Positions 3,173-62,078 of a stretch of DNA of 64,000 nt are shown one piece after another (the first letter of the stretch is position 1; each line of letters begins with the position of its first letter). The stretch is from an uncultured Thalassolituus sp. (lineage in GTDB: Bacteria; Pseudomonadota; Gammaproteobacteria; Pseudomonadales; Oceanobacteraceae). The notes under the pieces are model-generated. The model saw only the letters and a list, made by a program, of their open reading frames with translations, made no database searches and was not told the origin of the DNA. The stretch covers positions 1 through 64,000 of the forward strand of contig NZ_CATMFB010000012.1 of the NCBI RefSeq assembly GCF_950066645.1. Reading direction: 5' to 3'. The translations under genes and the position numbers were made by a program.

Positions 3173-4048
3173 TCATCGCACAGCGGTATGCCATAAAGCC
3201 TGTAAGAGTGGCTCGTTCAGGCGCTGAGTCTGGGCGCATAAACCAATAGCAAATGGCTCCAGCTCTGGCCTGACGGCAAGCACCCGCACCCGACCAGCCA
3301 GTGGGCTGTTCTGCAATACCAGTTCAGGGACAACCCCGACACCTACCCCCAGAGCCACCATACTGACAATAGCCTCGTGACCTGTTACCTGAGCATAAAT
3401 ATGTGGACGTATGCCCCGGGCGCTGAACCACTGATTTACCCGCGAGCGTGCCAGACCACTTTCAGACAACACCATCGGTACTTCGCTCCAGTCAATATCA
3501 GGCCGGGCGAGTTGTGGCACAGTACCGATAGACCTGGGGGCAATAAACAGCAACGGCGATGACGCCATTGCCCTGAAAGTCAGATCGGAGGGAAGTTGCT
3601 CAGGGCGAGCTGCAATCACGACATCGGCATCCCCCGAATCAGCACGTGGAATCGACTCGGCAGCATCCCCGGTATGAATGCGCAGATCTACACGAGGGTA
3701 GCGCTCGCGGAAGCGGGCAAGCAAGTCAGCAAGAAAGGAGTAGCTCGCCGTTACGGAGCAATAGAGAGTCAGCGATCCTTCCATGTCGCTCACCTCAGAG
3801 TTCACAGCAGACCGCAGCGCCTGGAAGCTTTCAAGAGTCTGCTCCGCATGCTGACGGAACAGCTCGCCTGCCGGGGTAAGAGTCAAAGGCCCACTGTCAC
3901 GAATCAGTAACTGAGCACCCACATCCTTCTCCATACGCGAAAGACGACGGCTCAGTGTCGACGAACTCATATGCAAGTGCTGGCCCGCTCTACCCAGATG
4001 CTGAGCCTCGACCACGCTGAGAAAGACCTGTAAGTCTTTGTATTCCAT
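3173..4048 (-). CDS. ilvY: IlvY, LysR-type activator of ilvC
   Basis: This is a 291-residue LysR-family regulator. The N-terminal winged helix-turn-helix lies at about residues 1-60 (LSVVEAQHLGRAGQHLHMSS). An effector-binding domain of the periplasmic-binding-protein fold follows. The gene is divergent from ilvC, the arrangement in which IlvY senses acetolactate or acetohydroxybutyrate and activates ilvC. A perfect palindrome between the genes fits its operator. The assignment rests on family and position. Confidence 0.9.
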   Translation of the reverse strand: MEYKDLQVFLSVVEAQHLGRAGQHLHMSSSTLSRRLSRMEKDVGAQLLIRDSGPLTLTPAGELFRQHAEQTLESFQALRSAVNSEVSDMEGSLTLYCSVTASYSFLADLLARFRERYPRVDLRIHTGDAAESIPRADSGDADVVIAARPEQLPSDLTFRAMASSPLLFIAPRSIGTVPQLARPDIDWSEVPMVLSESGLARSRVNQWFSARGIRPHIYAQVTGHEAIVSMVALGVGVGVVPELVLQNSPLAGRVRVLAVRPELEPFAIGLCAQTQRLNEPLLQALWHTAVR

Positions 4049-4073
4049 AACCTATTTCCGGGAGAAGAATGTC

Positions 4074-4090
4074 GTTGCAAATTTTGCAAC
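4074..4090. promoter_or_regulatory. Candidate IlvY operator
   Basis: GTTGCAAATTTTGCAAC is a perfect 8-base inverted repeat around one central base, placed 25 bases upstream of ilvY. A second, partial copy (ATTTTACGCAAC, about 4109-4120) lies further toward ilvC. This fits the tandem-operator arrangement known for the IlvY/ilvC control region. The T-N-A core is typical of LysR-type binding sites. The assignment is inferred from sequence and position. Confidence 0.7.
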
Positions 4091-4255
4091 AGATGCGCGC
4101 AATAATAGCATTTTACGCAACGATGCTCATCACCTATCATTCGCCCCGAATTTTTATATCAACCATATAACGAAGCTGCTTTGAACCTATTACTTTCATC
4201 ATCGTATGAGAAGCGTAGGCGAGGCAGGTAGCTTCAACACATAGAGGATAACGAA

Positions 4256-5746
4256 ATGGGTCAGAACTACTTCAACACCCTGAACCTCCAGCAAAAGCTG
4301 GATCAACTCGGCCGCTGCCGTTTCATGGACCGTTCTGAATTCGCTTCTGAAGCTGAATTCCTGAAAGGTAAGAAAGTTGTCATCGTTGGTTGTGGTGCTC
4401 AGGGCCTGAACCAGGGCATGAACATGCGCGACTCTGGTCTGGACGTATCTTACGCTCTGCGTGAAGCTGCGATCGCTGAGAAGCGTCAGTCATGGAAAAA
4501 CGCGTCTGAGAACGGCTTCAACGTTGGTACTTACGAAGAGCTGATCCCGACTGCTGACCTGGTTATGAACCTGACTCCAGACAAGCAGCACACTTCTGTA
4601 GTAACTGCAGTTATGCCTCTGATGAAAGAAGGCGCTTGCCTGGGTTACTCCCACGGCTTCAACATCGTTGAAGAAGGCATGCAGATCCGTGAAGACCTGA
4701 CTGTTGTTATGGTTGCACCTAAGTGCCCAGGTTCTGAAGTACGTGAAGAATACAAGCGTGGTTTCGGTGTTCCGACTCTGATCGCTGTTCACCCAGAAAA
4801 CGACCCTAAAGGCGAAGGCTGGGACATCGCTAAAGCATGGGCTGCAGCAACTGGCGGTCACCGCGCTGGCTGTCTGGAATCTTCTTTCGTTGCTGAAGTT
4901 AAGTCTGACCTCATGGGCGAGCAGACCATTCTGTGCGGTATGCTGCAGACTGGTGCGATCCTGGGCTTCGAGAAAATGGTTGAAGACGGTATCGACGAAG
5001 GCTACGCAGCTAAGCTGATTCAGTACGGTTGGGAAACTGTGACTGAAGCTCTGAAGTACGGCGGCATCACTAACATGATGGACCGTCTGTCTAACCCAGC
5101 GAAAATCGTTGCGTTCGACATGGCTGAAGAACTGAAAGAACTGATGCGCCCTCTGTTCCGCAAGCACCAGGCCGACATCATGGAAGGCGAATTCTCCCGT
5201 ACCATGATGGAAGACTGGGCGAACGACGATGCTAACCTGCTGAAATGGCGTGAAGAGACGGCAGAAACTGGCTTCGAAAAAGCACCAGCGTCTGACGTTC
5301 AGATCGACGAACAGGAATACTTCGACCACGGCATCATGCTGGTTGCTATGATCAAAGCCGGTGTTGAGCTGGCGTTCGAATCTATGGTTGAAAGCGGTAT
5401 CGTTGAAGAGTCTGCTTACTACGAGTCTCTGCACGAAACTCCACTGATCGCGAACACTATTGCACGTCGTAAGCTGTACGAGATGAACGTTGTTATCTCT
5501 GACACGGCTGAATACGGTAACTACCTGTTCTCTCACGCTGCCGTACCTCTGCTGCGCGAGAAGTTCATGCCACACATCAGCACTGACGTGATTGGTAAAG
5601 GCCTGAAGCTGAAGTCTAACTCTGTCGACAACGCTCGTCTGATCGAAGTTAACGAAGCTATCCGTAACCACCCAGTTGAGTGGGTTGGTGCCGAGCTGCG
5701 TGGCTACATGACTGACATGAAGCGTATCGTTGAAGCGTCTAAGTAA
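4256..5746 (+). CDS. ilvC: Ketol-acid reductoisomerase, class II (long form)
   Basis: IlvC converts acetolactate or acetohydroxybutyrate to the dihydroxy-acids of valine and isoleucine synthesis using NADPH and Mg2+. At 496 residues it is the long class II form, like the 491-residue E. coli enzyme, with a duplicated knotted C-terminal domain. The Rossmann motif GCGAQG lies at residues 45-50. The acidic metal-binding segments and DLMGEQ are present. Codon choice is strongly biased (CTG, GGT, CGT, GAA), which suggests high expression. It is divergent from ilvY and followed by a strong terminator. Confidence 0.97.
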
Positions 5747-5825: not shown

Positions 5826-8096
5826 TCAGGCTTTCGCCAGCGATACCGGTGTGTACTTGTGCGACGGCGTGCGCGAGAACGGATCACAATGGGTCGACGG
5901 CATCAGACGGTTGAGCGCCGGACCGACTTCTTCGCCATTATCGTAGGTAATGGCATAGCCATGGGGCAAGGCCACAACACGTCTGCGCATGGTGTCGTCG
6001 ATCATGATATCAACCCTGATGTTGGCGTAGCCGGAATCGCAAGTCACCTGATCGCCCGCCACCAGCCCGAGCTCTTGGGCATCCTCAGGGTGAATGCGCA
6101 TGGCACCGGTTTTATCGATTTTGCGCCACTGAGGATCACGGAAAATCTGATTGGCGTTATAGGCACGACGCTCACCCGCGATCAGGGTAAAGGGTTTGTC
6201 GTGGTCTACTGGCTCTCTTAACAGCGCCAACGCTTCATCCAGCATTTCAGGAATACGCAGATGAATTTTCTGATCTTTATTGGCCACCAACGACCAGACG
6301 TCCTCGTAGTTCTGACGGATATACACCAGCCCCGAACGTTCACGCAGAATTGCGCGGAATAGTCGGACGCCTGAGGTAAAGCGATTGCCTTTATAGCCCG
6401 CCCGCTTCACGCCATCGTGATAGCGCATAGAGGTCACAATCGACAGCGGCAACATAATGGCAGCGGCGGCTCCCTTATTCGGCAACGTACTCCCTAACGT
6501 GCGATAGAGAATGGATGCGGCAAACGGCTGCAGCTTTTTATCAGTCATTAACTTCGCTGCCAGCGAAATCAGAAAGCCGAGGTGGAAAGTTCCTTTCGGT
6601 TCTTTTTTCGCAATCGCCTTCATCACCGGGAAGTCTTTGGGAATTTTACCCATAGCTTCGAGAATCCGGGTGTAGATCTCAGGCTCTGGTAAAGTATTCC
6701 CGTGCGCCGGAAATAATGGGTGGCGAAGATGAAACCCATTCACCGGAAACTCGAGATTGAACCCTGTGAACTCCCACTTTTCGAACTGCGATGCCGCCGG
6801 CAGAACGTAATGTGCAAGGCGGGCTGTCTCGGTCAACGCAACATCCGTGACCACCAGCAACTCCAGCGACTTAAAAGCTTCCGTCATGCGGTCACTGTCG
6901 GCCCAGGTATTGATCGGGTTACAGCTGTCGACAAAGATTGAGCGGATGCATTTCTCCCCTGCCAGCAGAATTTCATCAGCCAGAATATTCGGCGGCAGAA
7001 TGCCCGAGACTGCGAACATCTTGTGATAGACGCTGCGGCGATACTTGGGATTACGCTCATCGGTATCCGTAAGAATCGGAACAATGGTGGTGTGCAGGTT
7101 GTTGGCGCCGCACTTACCGAATTGCCCAGTCACCAGATACAGCAGCTTTTCGAAATATCCGTTCAATGTGGTGCGGATAGAGTGTTGAATACCCAGATCA
7201 GCACGCACGCAGCCGGACTTTGCTGTCGCCAGACCTCGTGCTACAGCGTACACGTCGTCGGGGTTTACATCGGCACGGCGGATAAACTCTGCAACAGGCA
7301 CCGATTTCAGGTAACGCTCCACACTGGCAAAACCGGTACAGTGTTCGGCCAGAAATTCTTTTGCCTGAAGGCCTTCATTCACAATGATGGCCAGAATCGC
7401 ACTGAGCAGATAGGCATCCGTACCGGGCTTGAGCTGCAGATGGATATCGGCCATCTTCGCGGTTTCGGTACGGCGCGGATCAATCACCACCATAGTCCGT
7501 GCCGGATCTTTACTGATTTCCTTCAGGGTATGGCGGGCATTAGGTATGCCGTGAGCCTGAAACGGATTACAGCCGAGAAAAATCACAAAATCAGAGTGCT
7601 CGACATCTTCGGTGATGTGGCATGTCTGACTGCCAAACAGTCGACCATTCAGCCAGAAGTCACCGGTCTTCTCCTGCCCCAGTGAGTTGTAATTGAAGTA
7701 ACTCTTCATCGCCGCACGCAGCTGCCCGAGATAACCACCGCCGAGGTGATTCCCCTGTCCGCCACCGCCACAGGTCGCAAAGGCTTCACCACCGTGGGTA
7801 TCACGGATAGCCGTCATTTTTACCGCGATTTCATTGATCGCCTGATCCCATGAGATCTCTTCGAAGGTGCCGTCTTCTTTTCTTTTTAGGGGCTGACTCA
7901 GACGATCCGCGTTGTTCTGATAGTACTCCAGCCGCGCAGCTTTCTGACAGATATAGCCTTGTGACATCGGGTGCGCGTCATCGCCGCGGATTTTCTTAAA
8001 GCCCGTGGCATCAACCTCGACAGACAGCCCGCAGTTGCGCGAACACAGAATGCAGGCCGTCGTGTCTTCCCGGGTTTCCGTCACTGAAATATTCAC
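5826..8096 (-). CDS. Molybdopterin-dependent oxidoreductase with N-terminal 4Fe-4S cluster
   Basis: This 756-residue protein belongs to the DMSO reductase/formate dehydrogenase superfamily. The N-terminus carries the 4Fe-4S pattern C15-x2-C18-x3-C22-x27-C50. The molybdopterin domain follows, and the C-terminal molybdopterin-dinucleotide-binding domain starts near residue 640 (IHPEDAQELGLVAGDQVTC). No signal peptide is visible, so it is probably cytoplasmic. The substrate cannot be told from the sequence. It is divergent from a TetR gene, with a perfect palindrome between them, so the TetR protein may control it. No chaperone or electron-transfer subunit is adjacent. Confidence 0.85.
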   Translation of the reverse strand: MNISVTETREDTTACILCSRNCGLSVEVDATGFKKIRGDDAHPMSQGYICQKAARLEYYQNNADRLSQPLKRKEDGTFEEISWDQAINEIAVKMTAIRDTHGGEAFATCGGGGQGNHLGGGYLGQLRAAMKSYFNYNSLGQEKTGDFWLNGRLFGSQTCHITEDVEHSDFVIFLGCNPFQAHGIPNARHTLKEISKDPARTMVVIDPRRTETAKMADIHLQLKPGTDAYLLSAILAIIVNEGLQAKEFLAEHCTGFASVERYLKSVPVAEFIRRADVNPDDVYAVARGLATAKSGCVRADLGIQHSIRTTLNGYFEKLLYLVTGQFGKCGANNLHTTIVPILTDTDERNPKYRRSVYHKMFAVSGILPPNILADEILLAGEKCIRSIFVDSCNPINTWADSDRMTEAFKSLELLVVTDVALTETARLAHYVLPAASQFEKWEFTGFNLEFPVNGFHLRHPLFPAHGNTLPEPEIYTRILEAMGKIPKDFPVMKAIAKKEPKGTFHLGFLISLAAKLMTDKKLQPFAASILYRTLGSTLPNKGAAAAIMLPLSIVTSMRYHDGVKRAGYKGNRFTSGVRLFRAILRERSGLVYIRQNYEDVWSLVANKDQKIHLRIPEMLDEALALLREPVDHDKPFTLIAGERRAYNANQIFRDPQWRKIDKTGAMRIHPEDAQELGLVAGDQVTCDSGYANIRVDIMIDDTMRRRVVALPHGYAITYDNGEEVGPALNRLMPSTHCDPFSRTPSHKYTPVSLAKA

Positions 8097-50339: not shown

Positions 50340-51410
50340 CTACTGAAGATTCGTTCGTGGAACTCTGGGAGTCAGGCGGCAATACAGTTCATAGCTGATG
50401 GTGCCGGCCAGAGCGGCAACCTCATCTATGTCCACCAGCTCACCCCACAATTCAACCGGCGATCCGATGCAGGCCTCCGGCGCGTCCGTAATATCGACGG
50501 TAATCATGTCCATTGAAACCCGGCCAATCAGCGGACACCTGACGCCAGCAACATTTACCGGAGTCCCCGCTGGTGCATGTCGTGGATAGCCATCACCGTA
50601 CCCGATCGCAACTACCCCCACCCGTGTTTCGCGGGCAGCCGTCCAGCTACCACCATAACCAACGGATTCTCCGGCAGGCACGGAGTGAGTACTGATCAGA
50701 GCGGACTGCAGCGTCATCACCGGGCGCAGCCCGGCCTCTCTGGCCGTAACTCCCTCGAGTGGCGAGCTGCCGTAGAGCATAATTCCCGGACGCAGAACGC
50801 GCTCGCCTTCAACACCGCCACGCAACACAGAGGCACTGTTACTGAGGCTAAGTGGTACAGGCCAGGCCTGCCCCAGCATGCGGGTTTTCTGCGCTTCGTA
50901 ACAGGCGGTGTCTGCCTCATCTGACGATGAGAAATGACTCATCACATGCCGCAGTATCAGCCCCTGATCATTACGGATACGGGCAATCATTTCCGGTGCG
51001 TCGCTGAAGCGTACCCCCAGACGGTTCATACCGCTGTTGATTTTTAGCCAGACGGCAACGGCCTCGTCGAACACGACCGCTGCACGGTCCCGCAACTGCT
51101 GAGGATGATGAATTGCCAGCTGAAGATGGTAGCGCGACGCCAGCTGCCACTCGGCAGGCTCCATCGCACCTTCAAGAACAAGAATCGGCTGGCGGATACC
51201 CGCGTCGCGCAAACGCACTGCTTCATCAACACACGCCACGGCGAAACCATCCGCCTCTCCTGCCAGTGCATCCGCGCAGGCCGTCATACCATGCCCATAG
51301 CCATCGGCTTTGATCACGGCGTAAGCCTCATGGCGTGTACGTTGACGGGCGATGCGATAGTTGTGGCGCAGGTTTGACCACTTGAGCAAAGCTCGGGCAG
51401 GTCGGGTCAT
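50340..51410 (-). CDS. alr: Alanine racemase
   Basis: This 356-residue PLP enzyme interconverts L- and D-alanine for the cell wall. The PLP lysine is in AVIKADGYGHG (about residue 34), and the second catalytic base, tyrosine, lies in ESVGYGGSW. The C-terminal domain has IGRVSMDMITVD. In Pseudomonas and relatives alr lies directly after dnaB; here it is about 8 kb away on the other side of the DnaT-like operon. It is divergent from that operon by about 100 bases. Confidence 0.94.
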   Translation of the reverse strand: MTRPARALLKWSNLRHNYRIARQRTRHEAYAVIKADGYGHGMTACADALAGEADGFAVACVDEAVRLRDAGIRQPILVLEGAMEPAEWQLASRYHLQLAIHHPQQLRDRAAVVFDEAVAVWLKINSGMNRLGVRFSDAPEMIARIRNDQGLILRHVMSHFSSSDEADTACYEAQKTRMLGQAWPVPLSLSNSASVLRGGVEGERVLRPGIMLYGSSPLEGVTAREAGLRPVMTLQSALISTHSVPAGESVGYGGSWTAARETRVGVVAIGYGDGYPRHAPAGTPVNVAGVRCPLIGRVSMDMITVDITDAPEACIGSPVELWGELVDIDEVAALAGTISYELYCRLTPRVPRTNLQ

Positions 51411-51517: not shown

Positions 51518-52690
51518 ATGCCCAGCCACCCGCTGTTCAGCGACCACACGATCAGCCTCTCTGCGACACTGGCCGCCACCATCGGTCTGGAAGAAGCAGT
51601 GCTACTGACGGTTCTGAACGACGCTGCACGGCTGCAGAGCCAGCCACAGGCCAGGCTGAATAACGATATTCTGCGTCAGCAGTTACCTTTCTGGGATGAC
51701 GTTACCATCCGACGTGTGCTGCGCAGCCTGACCGATAAAGGTCTGCTGAGAATTCAGGGGCCGATGTTCCCGGATGCCGGCGGTATTATTTTTCATTTCG
51801 GTGATGAGGCGGCTACCCCGGCAAGCCGTCCGGCGACCACCCCGCAACCGGCGAGATCACAGTCCGGCACTCCGACCAGCGCCCAGCCAGCACCTGCACG
51901 CCCAGCCCCGATGCCACAGAAATGGCAACCGGCTGAAGACACTCTGCAGCGCCTGGAGCAACATGGTGTGCCCCGGGCATTCAGTTGTGCCCAGCTGGAT
52001 GCTTTTGTCCTGCAGGGGCAGGAACAGGGCAGCAACCGTAACGACTGGAATACCCGCTTCTTCCGTCATGTGAAGAACCAATGGGTTTATACACAGAATG
52101 ATGCCAGCCGCTTCCGCAGAGAACAGGAGCGTACGGCCTTTAACCCGGTACAGGACGAAGCCAGGCCCATCACCGGCGACTGGCGCCCGAGTCCGGATGC
52201 GCACCAGATACTCAGCCGCGCCGGCATCGATCCACAGTTTATTGATGATGCAGTTCCGGAGTTTATTCTCTACTGGAGTGAGCGCGGCGACGTGTTTAAA
52301 ACCTGGAACAGCAAATTTATTCAGCATGTCCGTCAACAATGGGCGCGGTATACTGCTGCGGTAGAGCATTCGCCCATGCCTGTGCGCATAGATGCTCAAT
52401 GGCAGCCCGCTGAAGACTGCTACGACATACTTAAGATGGGCCATATCCCCCGGGATTTTGCCAGTTCACTGGTGCCGGAATTTGTTCTTTACTGGCGCGA
52501 TTCCAATCAGGTGCACAACAGCTGGAACAGCCGCTTTCTGCAGTACGTAAAACAGCAGTGGGGTAAACGTCTGGCTCAGAAAGATCAGCCAACAGGAGAA
52601 GCAAATGGACAGCAAACAGGTGCTCAACCGGGTTACACAACAGCTCAGGCAAGCGTCCACCGACTCAGTGACACAAGCTGGGCAAAATAA
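51518..52690 (+). CDS. DnaT-like replication protein with three DnaT domains
   Basis: This 390-residue protein has an N-terminal winged-helix-like domain (about residues 1-80, LEEAVLLTVL then RRVLRSLTDKGLL) and a Pro/Ala-rich linker (95-134). Three copies of the DnaT ssDNA-binding domain follow, at about 135-191, 221-277 and 294-351. Each starts W-x-P and ends with a W-N-x-x-F-x-x-(H/Y)-V-x-x-Q-W motif. E. coli DnaT, which helps load DnaB during replication restart, has one such domain. The ATG at 51518, with GGAAG before it, is chosen over 51473. Its end overlaps the lambda P-like gene by 86 bases. Confidence 0.82.
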   Translation: MPSHPLFSDHTISLSATLAATIGLEEAVLLTVLNDAARLQSQPQARLNNDILRQQLPFWDDVTIRRVLRSLTDKGLLRIQGPMFPDAGGIIFHFGDEAATPASRPATTPQPARSQSGTPTSAQPAPARPAPMPQKWQPAEDTLQRLEQHGVPRAFSCAQLDAFVLQGQEQGSNRNDWNTRFFRHVKNQWVYTQNDASRFRREQERTAFNPVQDEARPITGDWRPSPDAHQILSRAGIDPQFIDDAVPEFILYWSERGDVFKTWNSKFIQHVRQQWARYTAAVEHSPMPVRIDAQWQPAEDCYDILKMGHIPRDFASSLVPEFVLYWRDSNQVHNSWNSRFLQYVKQQWGKRLAQKDQPTGEANGQQTGAQPGYTTAQASVHRLSDTSWAK

Positions 52691-53255
52691 CGCGACTCCG
52701 ACTGACGGCCAGATGGCAGCCATCAATCAGATTTTTGAGCTGTTCCGCTTTAATTATCACAACCAGTTTCTGAAAGCCTTTCCGGATCTGGACACCCTGA
52801 ATATGGCCAAACGCCTGTGGCTGAGACTGCTGGGTGACTACAGTGGCGAAGTCATCATGCGTGCCGCCGAACGCGCAGTAAAAGAAAACAGCTGGCTGCC
52901 AAACGTTCATGAGGTGCTGTCGCGCTGCGATGTCGCCGAGGTGCTGGGGCTACCTTCAGCCCACGCTGCGTACGTAGAAGCCTGCCGCGCCCCGTCGCCG
53001 AAAAAAGACTACCGCTGGAGCCATCCGGCTGTGTATTTTGCCGGGCGCGCCACGGACTGGTTTTTTATTGCTAATGAGCCCGAAGAAAAAGTCTTTCCGG
53101 TATTTAAGCGCAACTACGATATCCTGCTGCACCGACTGCAGAATGGTGAAACGCTGGAAGTGGATATTCCGGTTGCCCTCCCTGAAAACGTCAGTATTCC
53201 GGTCAGTCGCGACGAACAGAAAAAGCGGATGGAACATCTGCTGAGTTCACTCTGA
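52605..53255 (+). CDS. Lambda P-like replication protein, candidate DnaB loader
   Basis: This 216-residue protein resembles the phage lambda P/replication protein P family. Residues 38-105 (INQIFELFRFNYHNQFL, LNMAKRLWLRLLGDYSGEVIMRAAERAV and LPNVHEVLSRC) match the family core. P proteins bind DnaB and open its ring onto DNA. There is no Walker motif, so it is not a DnaC-type ATPase. It overlaps the DnaT-like gene by 86 bases (another frame) and precedes the CPXCG gene by four bases, so these are one operon. No phage genes surround it. Confidence 0.75.
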   Translation: MDSKQVLNRVTQQLRQASTDSVTQAGQNNATPTDGQMAAINQIFELFRFNYHNQFLKAFPDLDTLNMAKRLWLRLLGDYSGEVIMRAAERAVKENSWLPNVHEVLSRCDVAEVLGLPSAHAAYVEACRAPSPKKDYRWSHPAVYFAGRATDWFFIANEPEEKVFPVFKRNYDILLHRLQNGETLEVDIPVALPENVSIPVSRDEQKKRMEHLLSSL

Positions 53256-53259
53256 ATCT

Positions 53260-53454
53260 ATGTTTCAGTCAGAAGCTGATATCGCCTGCCCTTATTGCGG
53301 CGAACACCTGACGGTCCTTATTGATCCGTCTGAGCCGGAACAGGAATACATCGAAGACTGTCAGGTCTGCTGCCGGCCGATTGTATTGAGGGTGACGACA
53401 GACCCTGAGACCGATGAACCTCTGGTCATGGCATTTCACGAAAACGACGCCTGA
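53260..53454 (+). CDS. CPXCG-motif cysteine-rich small protein
   Basis: This 64-residue protein belongs to the CPXCG small protein family: CPYCGEHLTVLID at residues 10-22 and CQVCCRP about 25 residues later form a zinc-ribbon pair. The function of this conserved gammaproteobacterial family is unknown. It starts four bases after the lambda P-like gene and is probably in its operon. Confidence 0.85.
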   Translation: MFQSEADIACPYCGEHLTVLIDPSEPEQEYIEDCQVCCRPIVLRVTTDPETDEPLVMAFHENDA

Positions 53455-53531
53455 CTGCGACATCCTGTCACACGCCAGTGAGCAGCGGGTTTGCTAATCT
53501 GCAGCGGTTTTCATCAACCGACTCTGCCAGA

Positions 53532-55541
53532 ATGCTACGTACTTCATCCCTACTCTCTGCTGTTGCTGTTTTATCTTCATCGCCGGTCATGGCAGAACAC
53601 ACTCTCGATAACGTGGTGATTACCGCACCCCAAAGCGATTCCGTGCTGACGGTAACGACCGACCCTAAAGCGCCCCGCCAGCCCGTTCCTGCTCACGATG
53701 GCGCCGATCTGCTGAAGAATATCCCGGGCTTCGCTGTTATCCGTAAGGGGGGTACCGACGGCGATCCTGTTTTCCGGGGAATGGCGGGATCGCGCCTCAG
53801 TATCCTGCTGGACGGTGATACCGTACTCGGAGGTTGTGGTAACCGCATGGACCCGCCAACCGCCTACGTATTTCCACAGGCGTACGACAGCGTCACTGTC
53901 CTGAAAGGACCACAGTCGGTTCAGCATGGACCCGGCAGCAGCGCAGGCACCGTATTATTTGAACGCCACAAACCCGATTTTTCTGTTGCTAAGATTCAGG
54001 GCGACGCCAGCCTGTTAGCGGCCAGTGCCGACCGTAATGATCAGATGGCGCACCTGCTCTCCGGCAACCAGCGCGGTTACCTCGACCTCAGCGGCACACG
54101 CTCAGATGCCAATAACTACCGCGATGGAAACGGTGACGAAGTGCATTCCGCCTATACCCGCTGGAGCGGCAATGCCGCCATCGGCTGGACCCCTCACACA
54201 GATTCACGCATCGAGCTCAGTGGCGGGCGCAGCGACGGTGAAGCCCGCTACGCAGATCGTGCCATGGACGGTGCGCTGTTCGACAGAAGCAACGCAGCCC
54301 TCATGTTCGAACAACAGAATATCAGTGACAGCCTGGCCAGCGTAAAGGCACGCATCTACCGTCAGTATGTCGATCACGTAATGGATAACTTCAGCCTGCG
54401 CAGTACGTCAGGAATGAAAATGGTCAGTAATCCAGACCGCGAAACCACAGGCGCAAGCCTGACAGGCCTCTGGACGCCGGGGCTGGCAACCGACGTCCGC
54501 ACTGGCATTGATTATCAGAAAAACCAGCATCGCATCCGCAATGCGAACAACATGATGGATATGATGCAGACGCCCGATGCTGATCAACTGCACCGGAACG
54601 AAGACATGCGCTTCGAGACCCAGGGCGCCTTCGTCGAACTGGACCACAAATACTCAGACGGCAGCAGCCTGCACACTGGCCTACGGATTAACCGGGATGA
54701 GGCAGAAGACCTGAGAGCGAACCGCACCACAAGCAGCGACAAAGACATTAACCTGTTACACAGCATGTTTGCCCGTTATGAGTGGCAGATCTCCCCTGAT
54801 CAACGATTGTATGCCGGCCTGGGCCACAGTGAACGTGCGGCAGATTATTGGGAGCGGAATAAAAATCCTGCAGCGCAGTCACCTATGATGACGGGCAGTG
54901 CAAGCACCTTTGATGTCCGCCCGGAACGCACAACTCAGCTGGATACCGGCCTGCTCTTCAACAGAGGGCCATTGACCGGTTCAGTCTCCGCATTTTATGC
55001 GCTGCATCAGGACTACATTCTGATCGAACAACTCCCGGACGTCAGTGCCGCCGCAAGCAATGCCCGTAACATCCGCGCCATCAGCTATGGCACGGAAGCG
55101 GAAGCAACCTACCAACTGAGCCCCCACTGGAACACGCAGTCGTCGTTCGCCTGGGTGCGCGGTGAGAACGACACTGACAACACAGCGCTGGGGCAGATCG
55201 CTCCGCCTCAGGCGACCTTCAGCCTGAACTATGTTGAAACAACCTGGTCTGCCGGTGCCCTTCTGCGCGTAGTCGGTGATCAGAACCGGGTTGCACCCGG
55301 TACCGGAAATATCGTCGGACAGGACATCGGACGCTCCCCCGGCTTTGCTGTTTTCTCCGTCAATTCAGGTTGGCAGGCCGGTGACAACCTTCGCATAAAT
55401 GCGGGCATAGACAACCTGTTTGACCGGGCTTATGCAGAGCATATTTCCAGAAGCGGCGCCGACATCAGCGGCTATGAAACCACCACCAGAGTCTTCGAGC
55501 CAGGGCGGACCTGGTGGCTGCAGTTGCAGGCTTCGCTCTGA
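53532..55541 (+). CDS. TonB-dependent copper receptor (OprC-like)
   Basis: This outer-membrane receptor has about 669 residues from the ATG at 53532, which gives a normal signal peptide (MLRTSSLLSAVAVLSS, cut near VMA-EHT). A GTG-started longer frame at 53478 is less likely. A TonB-box-like TLDNVVIT follows, then the plug domain with LGGCGNRMDPPTAYVFPQAYD and LKGPQSVQHGPGSSAGTV, characteristic of the OprC/NosA copper receptors. The methionine-rich NNMMDMMQTPD near residue 340 may bind copper. The last residue pattern (phenylalanine/tyrosine-type beta signal) is a weaker fit: it ends LQLQASL. Confidence 0.88.
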   Translation: MLRTSSLLSAVAVLSSSPVMAEHTLDNVVITAPQSDSVLTVTTDPKAPRQPVPAHDGADLLKNIPGFAVIRKGGTDGDPVFRGMAGSRLSILLDGDTVLGGCGNRMDPPTAYVFPQAYDSVTVLKGPQSVQHGPGSSAGTVLFERHKPDFSVAKIQGDASLLAASADRNDQMAHLLSGNQRGYLDLSGTRSDANNYRDGNGDEVHSAYTRWSGNAAIGWTPHTDSRIELSGGRSDGEARYADRAMDGALFDRSNAALMFEQQNISDSLASVKARIYRQYVDHVMDNFSLRSTSGMKMVSNPDRETTGASLTGLWTPGLATDVRTGIDYQKNQHRIRNANNMMDMMQTPDADQLHRNEDMRFETQGAFVELDHKYSDGSSLHTGLRINRDEAEDLRANRTTSSDKDINLLHSMFARYEWQISPDQRLYAGLGHSERAADYWERNKNPAAQSPMMTGSASTFDVRPERTTQLDTGLLFNRGPLTGSVSAFYALHQDYILIEQLPDVSAAASNARNIRAISYGTEAEATYQLSPHWNTQSSFAWVRGENDTDNTALGQIAPPQATFSLNYVETTWSAGALLRVVGDQNRVAPGTGNIVGQDIGRSPGFAVFSVNSGWQAGDNLRINAGIDNLFDRAYAEHISRSGADISGYETTTRVFEPGRTWWLQLQASL

Positions 55542-59250: not shown

Positions 59251-60642
59251 TCAGTACTCATCATCTCCGCCCTCGTAGCCGTGGGCGAGATTTTCAAATC
59301 GTGTGTATTTACCGATAAAGGCAAGACGGTCGATACCAATAGGGCCGTTACGGTGTTTACCGGTAATAATTTCCGCAATGCCCTTATCCGGAGAATCTTC
59401 GTTATAAACCTCATCCCGGTAAATAAACTGAATAATATCGGCGTCCTGCTCGATCGCGCCCGATTCACGCAGGTCAGAGTTTACCGGGCGTTTGTTCGGT
59501 CGCTGCTCAAGCGAGCGGTTAAGCTGAGACAGTGCCACCATAGGGCAGTTGAATTCTTTAGCGATGATCTTCAGTGTCCGCGAAATCTCCGAGATTTCCT
59601 GTGTACGACCTTCCGATGGACCAGAAACCCGCATCAGCTGAAGGTAATCGACCATGATCAGTGCCAGGTCGTTGTTGTTCTCACGATACACTTTGCGCGC
59701 ACGGGCACGCATTTCCTGAGGTGTCAGCGCCGCAGTGTCATCAATATAAAGCGGCAGATCCTTGAGCAGGTTGACCGCCGCCGAGAGCTTAGGCCAGTCT
59801 TCATCGATTAATTTACCGGAGCGGATCCGGGTCTGATCGATTTTGCCGATGGAGGACAGCATCCGCATCACAATAGATTCAGACGGCATCTCAAGGCTGA
59901 ATACCAGCACCGGACGCTTGGTGGCCAGCAGCGCATTCTCGACCAGATTCATCGCGTAGGTCGTTTTACCCATGGAAGGACGGGCAGCGACGATGACCAG
60001 GTCAGCTTTCTGGAGACCCGACGTACGATTGTCGATTTCGGTGAAGCCCGTGGTAAGACCCGTCAGACCTTCAGGCTGATTGAACATCTGGTCGAGCTGT
60101 TCGAGTGTATTCTTAAGGATAGGGGCCACCAGCTCAGGGCCGCCATCTTTCCGGCTGCCTTCCGCAATCTGAGCAATGGACTTTTCGGCATCAGAGATCA
60201 GCGTCAGTGCATCATCTCCTGCCGGTTCGAACGCCCGTTCGATGATATCGGAGGCGGCTTCAATCAGGCGACGCTGCTGCGAGCGCTCAGCGACAATCGT
60301 AGCGTAAGCAGCGCAGTTCTCGATGGAGGGGGTCATATCGACCAGACGACTGAGATACGCCGCACCGCCGGCTTTTTCCAGCTGAGCCCGCTCTTCCAGT
60401 TCCTCGGCAACCGTCACCACGTCAACGGGTTGCTCCTGGTCTACGAGATGACGGATTGCCCGGAAAATGATCCGGTGGTCCTGGCGGTAAAAATCGACAT
60501 CGAGTACGGTTTCAGCAACCGATTCCCATGCACGGTCATCCAGCATCAGTGAACCCAGGACAGATTGCTCCGCCTCTACTGAATGGGGGGGAACCCGTAC
60601 GCTACCAGTCTCTTCTGCTCCGTGGCTGTAGTCGTCGCTCAT
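59251..60642 (-). CDS. dnaB: Replicative DNA helicase DnaB
   Basis: DnaB is the hexameric 5'-3' helicase of the replication fork. At 463 residues it is full-length. The N-terminal primase-binding domain (PHSVEAEQSVLGSLMLDD) is followed by a RecA-type core: Walker A ARPSMGKTTYAMN, Walker B ALIMVDYLQLM and ALSQLNRSLEQRPNKRPVNSDLRESGAIEQDAD. It is the last replication gene of the rpsF-rpsR-rplI-dnaB block. A lambda P-like candidate loader lies 6 kb away on the opposite strand. Confidence 0.97.
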   Translation of the reverse strand: MSDDYSHGAEETGSVRVPPHSVEAEQSVLGSLMLDDRAWESVAETVLDVDFYRQDHRIIFRAIRHLVDQEQPVDVVTVAEELEERAQLEKAGGAAYLSRLVDMTPSIENCAAYATIVAERSQQRRLIEAASDIIERAFEPAGDDALTLISDAEKSIAQIAEGSRKDGGPELVAPILKNTLEQLDQMFNQPEGLTGLTTGFTEIDNRTSGLQKADLVIVAARPSMGKTTYAMNLVENALLATKRPVLVFSLEMPSESIVMRMLSSIGKIDQTRIRSGKLIDEDWPKLSAAVNLLKDLPLYIDDTAALTPQEMRARARKVYRENNNDLALIMVDYLQLMRVSGPSEGRTQEISEISRTLKIIAKEFNCPMVALSQLNRSLEQRPNKRPVNSDLRESGAIEQDADIIQFIYRDEVYNEDSPDKGIAEIITGKHRNGPIGIDRLAFIGKYTRFENLAHGYEGGDDEY

Positions 60643-61318: not shown

Positions 61319-61549
61319 TTAATTGTCGTGCTGATCAGTGTATGGCAGCAGTGCGATGTAGCGCGCACGCTTGATCGCAGTAGACAGCTGACGCTGATAC
61401 TTAGCACGGGTACCAGTGATACGGCTTGGTACGATTTTGCCAGTTTCAGTGATGTAGCCTTTCAGTGTGTCCAGATCTTTGTAATCGATCTCAGAAACAC
61501 CTTCAGCAGTGAAACGGCAGAACTTACGACGACGGAAAAAACGTGCCAT
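61319..61549 (-). CDS. rpsR: 30S ribosomal protein S18
   Basis: S18 has 76 residues with the expected [47 protein letters not shown] order and the basic [21 protein letters not shown] end. It begins only 14 bases after rpsF, so the priB gene found at this place in E. coli is absent. Confidence 0.97.
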
Positions 61550-61563
61550 GACTAAATCCCCTA

Positions 61564-61992
61564 TTACTCAGCGTTGTCTTCAGCAGACTGTTCTTCAGTC
61601 TCATCTTCATCGTTAGCATTGTCTGCTTTAGCTTCTGCTTCAGCGCGCTCTGCACGACGACGGTCTTCACGGCTTTCAGCAGCCTTGATTGGAGACATTT
61701 CAGTAACAGCCTCATCACGACGGATCACCATGTTACGCAGAACAGCATCGTTGTAACGGAAGTTGGTGGTCAGCTCGTCGAGAGCTTCCTGAGTACATTC
61801 AACGTTCATCAGGATGTAGTGTGCTTTATGCACGTCGTTGATCGGGTATGCCAGGTGACGGCGGCCCCAATCTTCGAAGCGGTTGATTTTACCGCCAGCG
61901 GATTCGATGGTGTTGGTGTAACGCTCAACCATCGCAGGAACCTGTTCGCTCTGATCCGGGTGAACCAGGAAAACGATTTCGTAGTGACGCAT
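61564..61992 (-). CDS. rpsF: 30S ribosomal protein S6
   Basis: S6 begins [17 protein letters not shown] at an ATG at 61992, preceded by AAGGAGC; the 22-codon upstream extension is not real. The central [16 protein letters not shown] block is typical. The tail after residue 105 is a long acidic extension ([20 protein letters not shown]), the glutamate-rich end that RimK modifies in E. coli. Total length is 142 residues. It heads the operon with rpsR, rplI and probably dnaB. Confidence 0.96.
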
Positions 61993-62078
61993 TGTCAGCT
62001 CCTTATGGGTATTCAGCCTTCCGGCCCATCCGGTAAGGCAAGGAGTTCGCCTAAGCACAGCTTTGACGAAGGGCGGGC

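Follow-up and report, generated by a model that had tools for sequence, protein, structure and literature searches.

The window analysed here, a 64,000-nucleotide stretch of an uncultured Thalassolituus sp. (positions 1 to 64,000 of contig NZ_CATMFB010000012.1), contains two overlapping genes that encode DopC, a protein with three DnaT domains, and DopE, a lambda-P-like helicase loader. Such a pair was reportedly named dopC and dopE by Brezellec et al. in 2017, in Genome Biol Evol. The module fits the DopC/DopE proposed at that time, and we take the module as such as known. A prediction made earlier from the letters of this DNA (the original prediction) had described a triple-DnaT gene and a lambda P-like gene that overlap, adjoin alr, lie 6 kb from dnaB and have no phage context, and all of these points hold (Table 1). 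The span that it gave, up to 53454, does contain both genes, but it also takes in a CPXCG gene that we do not count in the module. The listed open reading frame (ORF) of dopC opens at a TTG further 5' than the ATG at 51518. Our comparisons of sequences indicate that this operon is very probably a chromosomal DopC-DopE helicase-loading module standing in for DciA in this lineage (probability about 0.83).

Table 1. Features of the dopCE locus and its surroundings (positions in the window)
Feature	Position	Strand	Description
dopC	51518..52690	+	390 aa from ATG; winged helix, three DnaT domains and C-terminal D-x-S-W tail
Winged-helix domain of DopC	51563..51799	+	residues 16-94 of AlphaFold2 model
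DnaT domain D1	51905..52111	+	stacking Y/W replaced by Q/G in this organism
DnaT domain D2	52163..52369	+	Y and W kept
DnaT domain D3	52382..52588	+	Y and W kept; near-constant spacing from D2
C-terminal tail RLSDTSWAK of DopC	52661..52687	+	candidate DopE-docking peptide
dopC/dopE overlap	52605..52690	+	86 nt; codes DopC tail and DopE start in different frames
dopE	52605..53255	+	216 aa; lambda-P-like helicase loader
CPXCG gene	53260..53454		PF14255; directly 3' of dopE
alr (alanine racemase)	50340..51410	-	divergent neighbour, 107 bp upstream of dopC; outside proposed mechanism
dnaB	59251..60642	-	presumed client; convergent, 6.0 kb downstream; K285 in loader-binding determinant helix
rpsR and rpsF	61319..62058	-	adjacent, 14 bp apart

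DopE matches the Pfam family PF06992 (Phage_lambda_P) with 37.4 bits against a cut-off of 26, and the family is found in 60 of the 61 aligned DopE sequences, including that of the window. PHROGs classes it as a P-like helicase loader (E 5e-20). Against the PDB, a DopE profile picks up lambda P (8v9t, E 1.5e-8, positions 26-218 of 220). The DopE structural model (mean predicted local distance difference test score, pLDDT, of 77; predicted template modelling score, pTM, of 0.50) resembles DnaB-bound lambda P (9oa1, E 7e-5 to 6e-4), and a weaker resemblance is to G39P (1no1; probability 1.00, E 0.29). The DciA family PF05258 (DUF721) is absent from both DopC and DopE in Pfam up to E 1, and NCBIfam gives no match to either protein at E 0.01. 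According to two papers, lambda P, DnaC and DciA all contact the linker-helix/determinant-helix module of DnaB (PMC9912922, PMC6391071). From its homology with lambda P and from its model, DopE would be a lambda-P-type loader that binds the DnaB hexamer at this module and opens the ring. Its nearest relatives among the named loci, the best 80 of 141 stretches coding a DopE relative, belong to Thalassolituus and Oceanobacter (best 83% identity), with further relatives in Cellvibrio, Zhongshania, Gilvimarinus, Marinimicrobium, Bermanella, Oleispira and their kin.

In an even sample of 144 genomes of the order, DopE, searched with the protein as query, occurs in 89, the DnaT domain PF17948 in 88, and DciA in 45 at E 0.001 (42 above the family cut-off). 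DopE and DciA occur together in one genome only, G286 (Fisher's exact 2e-25, a value not corrected for kinship), and the 88 DnaT genomes are the 89 DopE genomes minus G286. There the DopE-like gene sits behind a phage-type replication protein and beside a transposase (both named from sequence); this O-P pair looks like a mobile remnant and is not counted as a chromosomal dopCE. In a sample of the class, a DopE match at E 1e-8 was found in 18 of 369 genomes, our own included; PF06992 searched over the class (5 of 229) missed the window's own gene and was replaced by the DopE protein and alignment searches. Four of the 17 other class genomes (G176, G423, G003 and G046, at loci L159, L160, L164 and L163) lie outside the order and have no DciA match. 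Their DopC contains either two or three DnaT domains and ends in a tail of this kind, which deviates from the strict form in G003 and G176. Three of these four genomes measure 1.2-1.5 Mb. DciA is present in 9 of the 17; among these, G100 and G409 have a one-domain DnaT match beside a P-type gene, that of G100 without the tail. The family f105 genomes G103, G220 and G460 have no DciA match, and their P-type genes have no DnaT match in the loci scanned.

The setting of the operon is that of a host gene. Divergently upstream of dopC lies alr in 24 and radA in 27 of the 80 named loci (51 together), and dnaB lies downstream in 27 of 80, within the fetched flank of up to 6 kb; since flanks are incomplete in some loci, these counts are lower bounds. 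Around the window's dopCE no other phage genes were seen: the neighbours are alr, dnaB and ribosomal protein genes, with rplI, rpsR and rpsF following in that order beyond dnaB. The pair might instead be left over from a prophage or from phage defence and do nothing for the cell, as phages do encode relatives of both proteins (DopE is matched by 16 phage records and the D2-D3 piece of DopC by 7, 4 of the latter at E 1e-5) and some genomes hold several P-type copies. However, the alr or radA neighbourhood, the many invariant positions, the near exclusion of DciA, and the lack of any match to whole DopC in 50,697 phage records at E 1e-5 leave this explanation scarcely credible, and we disfavour it. 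A nucleotide search of plasmids found nothing, and Foldseek comparison of DopC with viral models returned only whole-chain matches of low TM. In the relatives, where prophage residence or absence from sister strains would have told against a chromosomal loader, all four sampled genomes of the family carry DopE. The original proposal of a domesticated P-type loader therefore stands as regards fixation in the chromosome (4/4 genomes of the family, 89/144 of the order, DciA in only 1 of the 89), but not as regards the novelty of the system as a whole.

Multiple P-type copies occur in family f201, in which genomes G261, G297, G326 and G354 have 3 to 10 loader matches each; in G261, copy L051 has a short DopC with a tail and copy L052 looks phage-type. 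A viral contig of 42,299 bases from IMG/VR (L257, ORF 3401-4315) encodes a P-like protein that shares 49% identity with the DopE query across 98 residues at the C terminus, and the ORF upstream of its gene has no D-x-S-W tail.

DopC itself is composite. Pfam recognizes three PF17948 stretches (whole-protein E 4e-66), and the AlphaFold2 model (mean pLDDT 82.5, pTM 0.40) begins with a confident winged helix; after a linker of low confidence come three helical domains, and the tail is disordered. Within the winged-helix part, residues 11-90 have pLDDT block means of 85-97. Its best PDB fold matches, 4pt7, 4pql and 5kbj, are replication-initiator N-domains, with probabilities of 0.94-0.99 but E values of 0.12-0.33. 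We take these initiators to be of the plasmid RepA type. Three DnaT domains are the commonest arrangement, found in 104 of 127 DopC frames, duplicates included (one domain in 17, two in 4, four in 2), and in 90 of 112 distinct DopC (17, 3 and 2, respectively). In the sampled f169 and f175 loci and at one f201 locus, a single DnaT domain follows 49-90 residues, and the DopC of f212 has two domains preceded by 25 to about 40 residues. A winged-helix profile finds no match in the short-DopC loci L036, L037, L042, L043, L044 and L051, although it also misses the longer DopC of L050 and L054, which may hold a diverged winged helix. Because these short forms lack a winged-helix match, the DnaT domain and the tail appear to be the most widely kept parts of DopC.

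The three DnaT domains are not equivalent. According to PMC4132743, a single change of Y127, W128, K133, F135, K143 or R146 weakens binding of E. coli DnaT to single-stranded DNA (ssDNA), the Y127A/W128A protein retains almost no binding, and each C-terminal domain binds 2 nt. Among the 90 distinct triple DopC, the W128 place holds W in 100% of D2 and D3 versus 56% of D1; the Y127 place holds Y or F in 99% of D2, 99% of D3 and 55% of D1 (Y alone in 51% of D1); and the K143 place holds K or R in 98%, 98% and 71% of D2, D3 and D1, respectively. The window's D1 has Q and G where the E. coli protein has the ssDNA-stacking Y127 and W128. Spacing follows the same pattern, the distance between the starts of D2 and D3 being 73 or 74 residues in 86 of the 90, while that from D1 to D2 spans 70 to 103. 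DnaT C-terminal domains form a filament on lagging-strand ssDNA (PMC13377028). With its nearly fixed spacing, the D2-D3 tandem resembles a pair of joined protomers from such a filament. The suggestion that three domains would span a long stretch of ssDNA did not survive: at 2 nt per domain about 6 nt are expected, D1 is degenerate in this organism, and 17 of the 112 distinct DopC have one domain. In an unrooted and poorly resolved tree of DnaT domains (69 columns), D1, D2 and D3 cluster by position, with 6, 3 and 3 changes against about 23 when shuffled, so the triplication looks old.

The replication inventory of the genome is consistent with a replaced loader. As the original prediction had advised, we looked for the usual factors: PriA is present (588 bits), whereas searches of this genome found no DciA (PF05258), no PriC and no recognized DnaC/I. 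PF01695 gives two matches only, one being DnaA beside dnaN and the other falling below threshold, within an ORF of 831 aa. DnaT is matched three times in the genome, as often as in DopC itself, and at least two of these matches lie in DopC. The rpsF-rpsR interval, the place of priB in E. coli, is a 14-bp gap without priB, a negative that covers this interval. On these facts one could hold that DopC-DopE serves restart only, replacing PriB-DnaT-DnaC after PriA, with another, unrecognized factor acting at oriC: DnaT domains are known from PriA-dependent restart (PMC13377028), and dopCE lies on another contig than dnaA-dnaN. Yet DciA almost never accompanies DopE, so that oriC would need another loader, of which none was found, and the best fold matches of the DopC winged helix are replication initiators. 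A restart-only role is therefore improbable to us.

The C terminus of DopC offers a clue to how the two proteins might work together. D385 and W388 of the tail are invariant in 63 aligned DopC. The pattern D-x-[SD]-W occurs within the last 30 residues of 106 of 112 distinct DopC versus 1 of 765 other ORFs of the named loci, and a looser form in 110 versus 9. The tail is coded by the same bases as a DopE N-terminal motif, S-x-T-x-A-G, and so might be a mere by-product of the gene overlap, with selection acting on the DopE motif: in the 118 rows where the open DopE frame reaches 40 nt or more upstream of the dopC stop codon, the tail is present in 114 and the motif in 96. Rows with little or no overlap separate the two. 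All 9 of these (6 genomes) lose the DopE motif, while 6 rows, from 4 of the 6 genomes and three lineages, keep the strict tail; in the remaining rows, G176 has a closely similar variant, and L052 is the copy of phage type. Phage O genes that overlap P by only 1-4 nt also code a tail of this kind. A by-product is thus quite unlikely.

The phage comparison extends further. Of 17 phage records with a P-type gene that were fetched, 15 could be scored; in QHHSV-1 the upstream O-type ORF was not identified, and in FBPa19 the annotated O runs into P, and it was used among the controls. The records were hand-picked: 8 of the 16 DopE matches, 8 of 40 listed lambda-P matches among 182 records, and lambda. 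A loose tail, [DN]-x-[SDGNH]-W, is found in 11 of the 15 O rows upstream of P, lambda O included (9 of 13 distinct, PAE2 repeating Ab31 and OQ658365 repeating BR153a), against 0 of 37 control coding sequences, a hand-listed subset of the total. The O tails end N-T-D-W in lambda and phi80, D-T-S-W in Ab31 and SC_8, and D-D-D-W in BR153a. Together, the initiator-type winged helix and the phage-O-like tail point to a possible origin of the partner protein in phage O. In L275 (G409:C67:9000-24000), an O-P pair (ORFs 6506-7471 and 7362-8042) lies in an apparent prophage; its O protein has a weak DnaT match and ends D-T-S-W, and the pair is a possible relative of the source of dopC. We found no description of the O-P contact residues in openly licensed literature, including the available parts of PMC6022878 and PMC3640518. 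The like tail in lambda O may offer a handle on that contact.

We favor DopE as the tail's partner. The tail is disordered in the DopC model (pLDDT <50) and could alternatively dock DnaB or another replisome protein directly, a possibility that we rate as appreciable but clearly the less probable. It has to account for the recurrence of the tail in phage O upstream of P-type loaders, for its absence from a relative in Stenotrophomonas phage StM171 that has no adjacent P, and for a single ORF that fuses DopC-type winged helices to DopE. That ORF, in genome G161 (L170, L254; G161:C133), has 397 aa and consists of two DopC-type winged helices followed by the N-terminal half of DopE; it has no DnaT match, and the genome has no DciA match.

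If loaders were exchanged, their client might have changed as well. At DnaB position 285, in the determinant helix, K is found in 45 of 51 DopE genomes and R in 36 of 37 DciA genomes; the 49 distinct DnaB of the 51 (two are repeats) have K in 43 and R in 6. With DopE genomes pooled, no other of the 463 columns separates the loader types as well as residue 285; with the triple-DnaT genomes alone it ranks third, and with the single-DnaT genomes alone fourth. Position 288, which by alignment on a conserved W corresponds to the serine called determinant in PMC9825169, is S in 34 of 37 DciA, 9 of 35 triple-DnaT and 9 of 16 single-DnaT genomes. These counts exclude the short DnaB sequences L253, L248, L141, L132 and L145; L252 of G331 (30% match); G230 and G282 (pieces only); G247, G279 and G345 (no DnaB match); G286 (both loaders); G409 (both loaders; aligned but uncounted); and four rows from outside the order. 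On a DnaB tree built without the determinant helix, loader type needs 7 changes, of which well-supported branches force only 2. Co-change of DnaB at K285 with loader type is thus suggestive. In two DopE genomes the match to DnaB is broken up within long dnaB frames, of 884 aa (L069:9157-11808 of G303) and 965 aa (L253, G300:C12:61762-64596), and these genes probably carry inteins.

A working model can be drawn from these elements, its ssDNA half from the conserved DnaT residues and its DopE-DnaB half from homology with lambda P. DopC would be an initiator-type adaptor whose DnaT domains bind ssDNA and whose tail docks DopE-DnaB, by analogy with phage O and P. We infer the following order of steps. 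DopC would reach ssDNA that DnaA has exposed at oriC or PriA at a fork, so that it may act at the origin, at restart or at both; D2-D3 would cover about 4 nt in filament geometry; the flexible tail would catch DopE bound to DnaB; and DopE would hold the DnaB ring open while ssDNA enters, and then leave. A bolder version, which is tentative and on balance rather doubtful, sees DopC as a covalent, preassembled piece of DnaT filament that serves both oriC and PriA-dependent restart, replacing DnaT, PriB and the loader-recruiting part of DnaA, with the tryptophan-tail handover of DopE-DnaB kept from phage O-P. If this were true, helicase loaders could be swapped as a tail-plus-loader cassette, with compensating changes in the determinant helix of DnaB.

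Several observations weigh against parts of this reading. In eleven of the order's 144 genomes the searches used detected no DopE and no DciA, and G409 has DopE, a tailed DnaT-type partner and DciA together; its pair lies among repressor-like, holin-like and terminase-like ORFs (named from sequence), which we read as a prophage. On the ssDNA side, the places of K133, F135 and R146, binding residues in E. coli DnaT, are unconserved in DopC, and single-DnaT forms occur, some with no detectable winged helix. Phage_rep_O (Pfam) matches 0 of 63 DopC, which leaves the winged helix and the tail as the grounds for a descent from phage O. The strict tail occurs in 6 of the 15 O rows (4 of 13 distinct), with lambda O not among them; the loose pattern was widened after the tails had been inspected, and even so four O proteins (Pm34, Meifeng, 587AP2 and MD8) lack it, having other tryptophans near the end. 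As to DnaB, the four DopCE genomes from outside the order have K, N, N and S at 285, K thus in only one. The K285 association is not significant after tree control, which leaves 2 well-supported independent pairs, or 7 when every branch is counted. Of the 2, an average of 1.7 pair K with DopE, and a sign test on them cannot reach significance.

Two neighbors on the 3' side lie outside the model. The CPXCG gene was considered as a third member of the module and rejected, as it adjoins dopE in only 6 of 80 named loci (E 1e-6), all near relatives. The ORF at 53478-55541 resembles a TonB-dependent receptor, as named from sequence.

As a known module the operon is ordinary; what merits a specialist's attention is the tail, the way in which ssDNA sites are kept in some domains and degenerate in another, and the lead in DnaB. 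Knowledge of helicase loading is still growing for bacteria other than the E. coli and Bacillus models, and this locus ties a large marine lineage to what appears to be a phage-derived loader. The parts that it singles out are the tail of nine residues, the two ssDNA sites that are intact and almost evenly spaced, and a single helix of DnaB. A 2016 paper (PMC5109545) noted that neither dciA nor dna[CI] occurs in the Cellvibrionales and raised the question of a different, acquired loader. DopE appears next to DciA among the loader families listed by a paper of 2026, the only literature on DopE as a helicase loader that we found, apart from one other paper in which the word occurs.

It is useful to set the module beside the systems it resembles. 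DopC/DopE reportedly comprises a chromosomal lambda-P-like protein and an upstream partner in lineages without DciA and DnaC/I, as here; the D1/D2/D3 site pattern, the D-x-S-W tail and the DnaB residue 285 lead are what we add. DopE presumably performs the same task as DciA, the loading of DnaB at the linker-helix/determinant-helix module, but PF05258 is missing from both proteins and from this genome. As in phage lambda O-P, an initiator-type protein is translated before a P-type loader, DopE shares the P fold and sequence, and lambda O ends in a loose form of the DopC-type tail, N-T-D-W. Unlike lambda O, DopC does not match Phage_rep_O, has DnaT domains and keeps a conserved chromosomal neighborhood. 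DopC shares the domain family and the stacking Y/W places of E. coli DnaT (PF17948; PDB 4ou7, 9zbu); however, that protein has one such domain and an N-terminal domain, according to PMC13377028, whereas DopC has three in tandem behind a winged helix. The nearest phage protein in build, among those examined, is the replication initiation protein of StM171, which combines a DopC-type winged helix (E 4.5e-19) with a DnaT domain and aligns with DopC at an hhalign probability of 99.2. Unlike DopC, it has one DnaT domain, no D-x-S-W tail and no annotated P gene in the fetched stretch.

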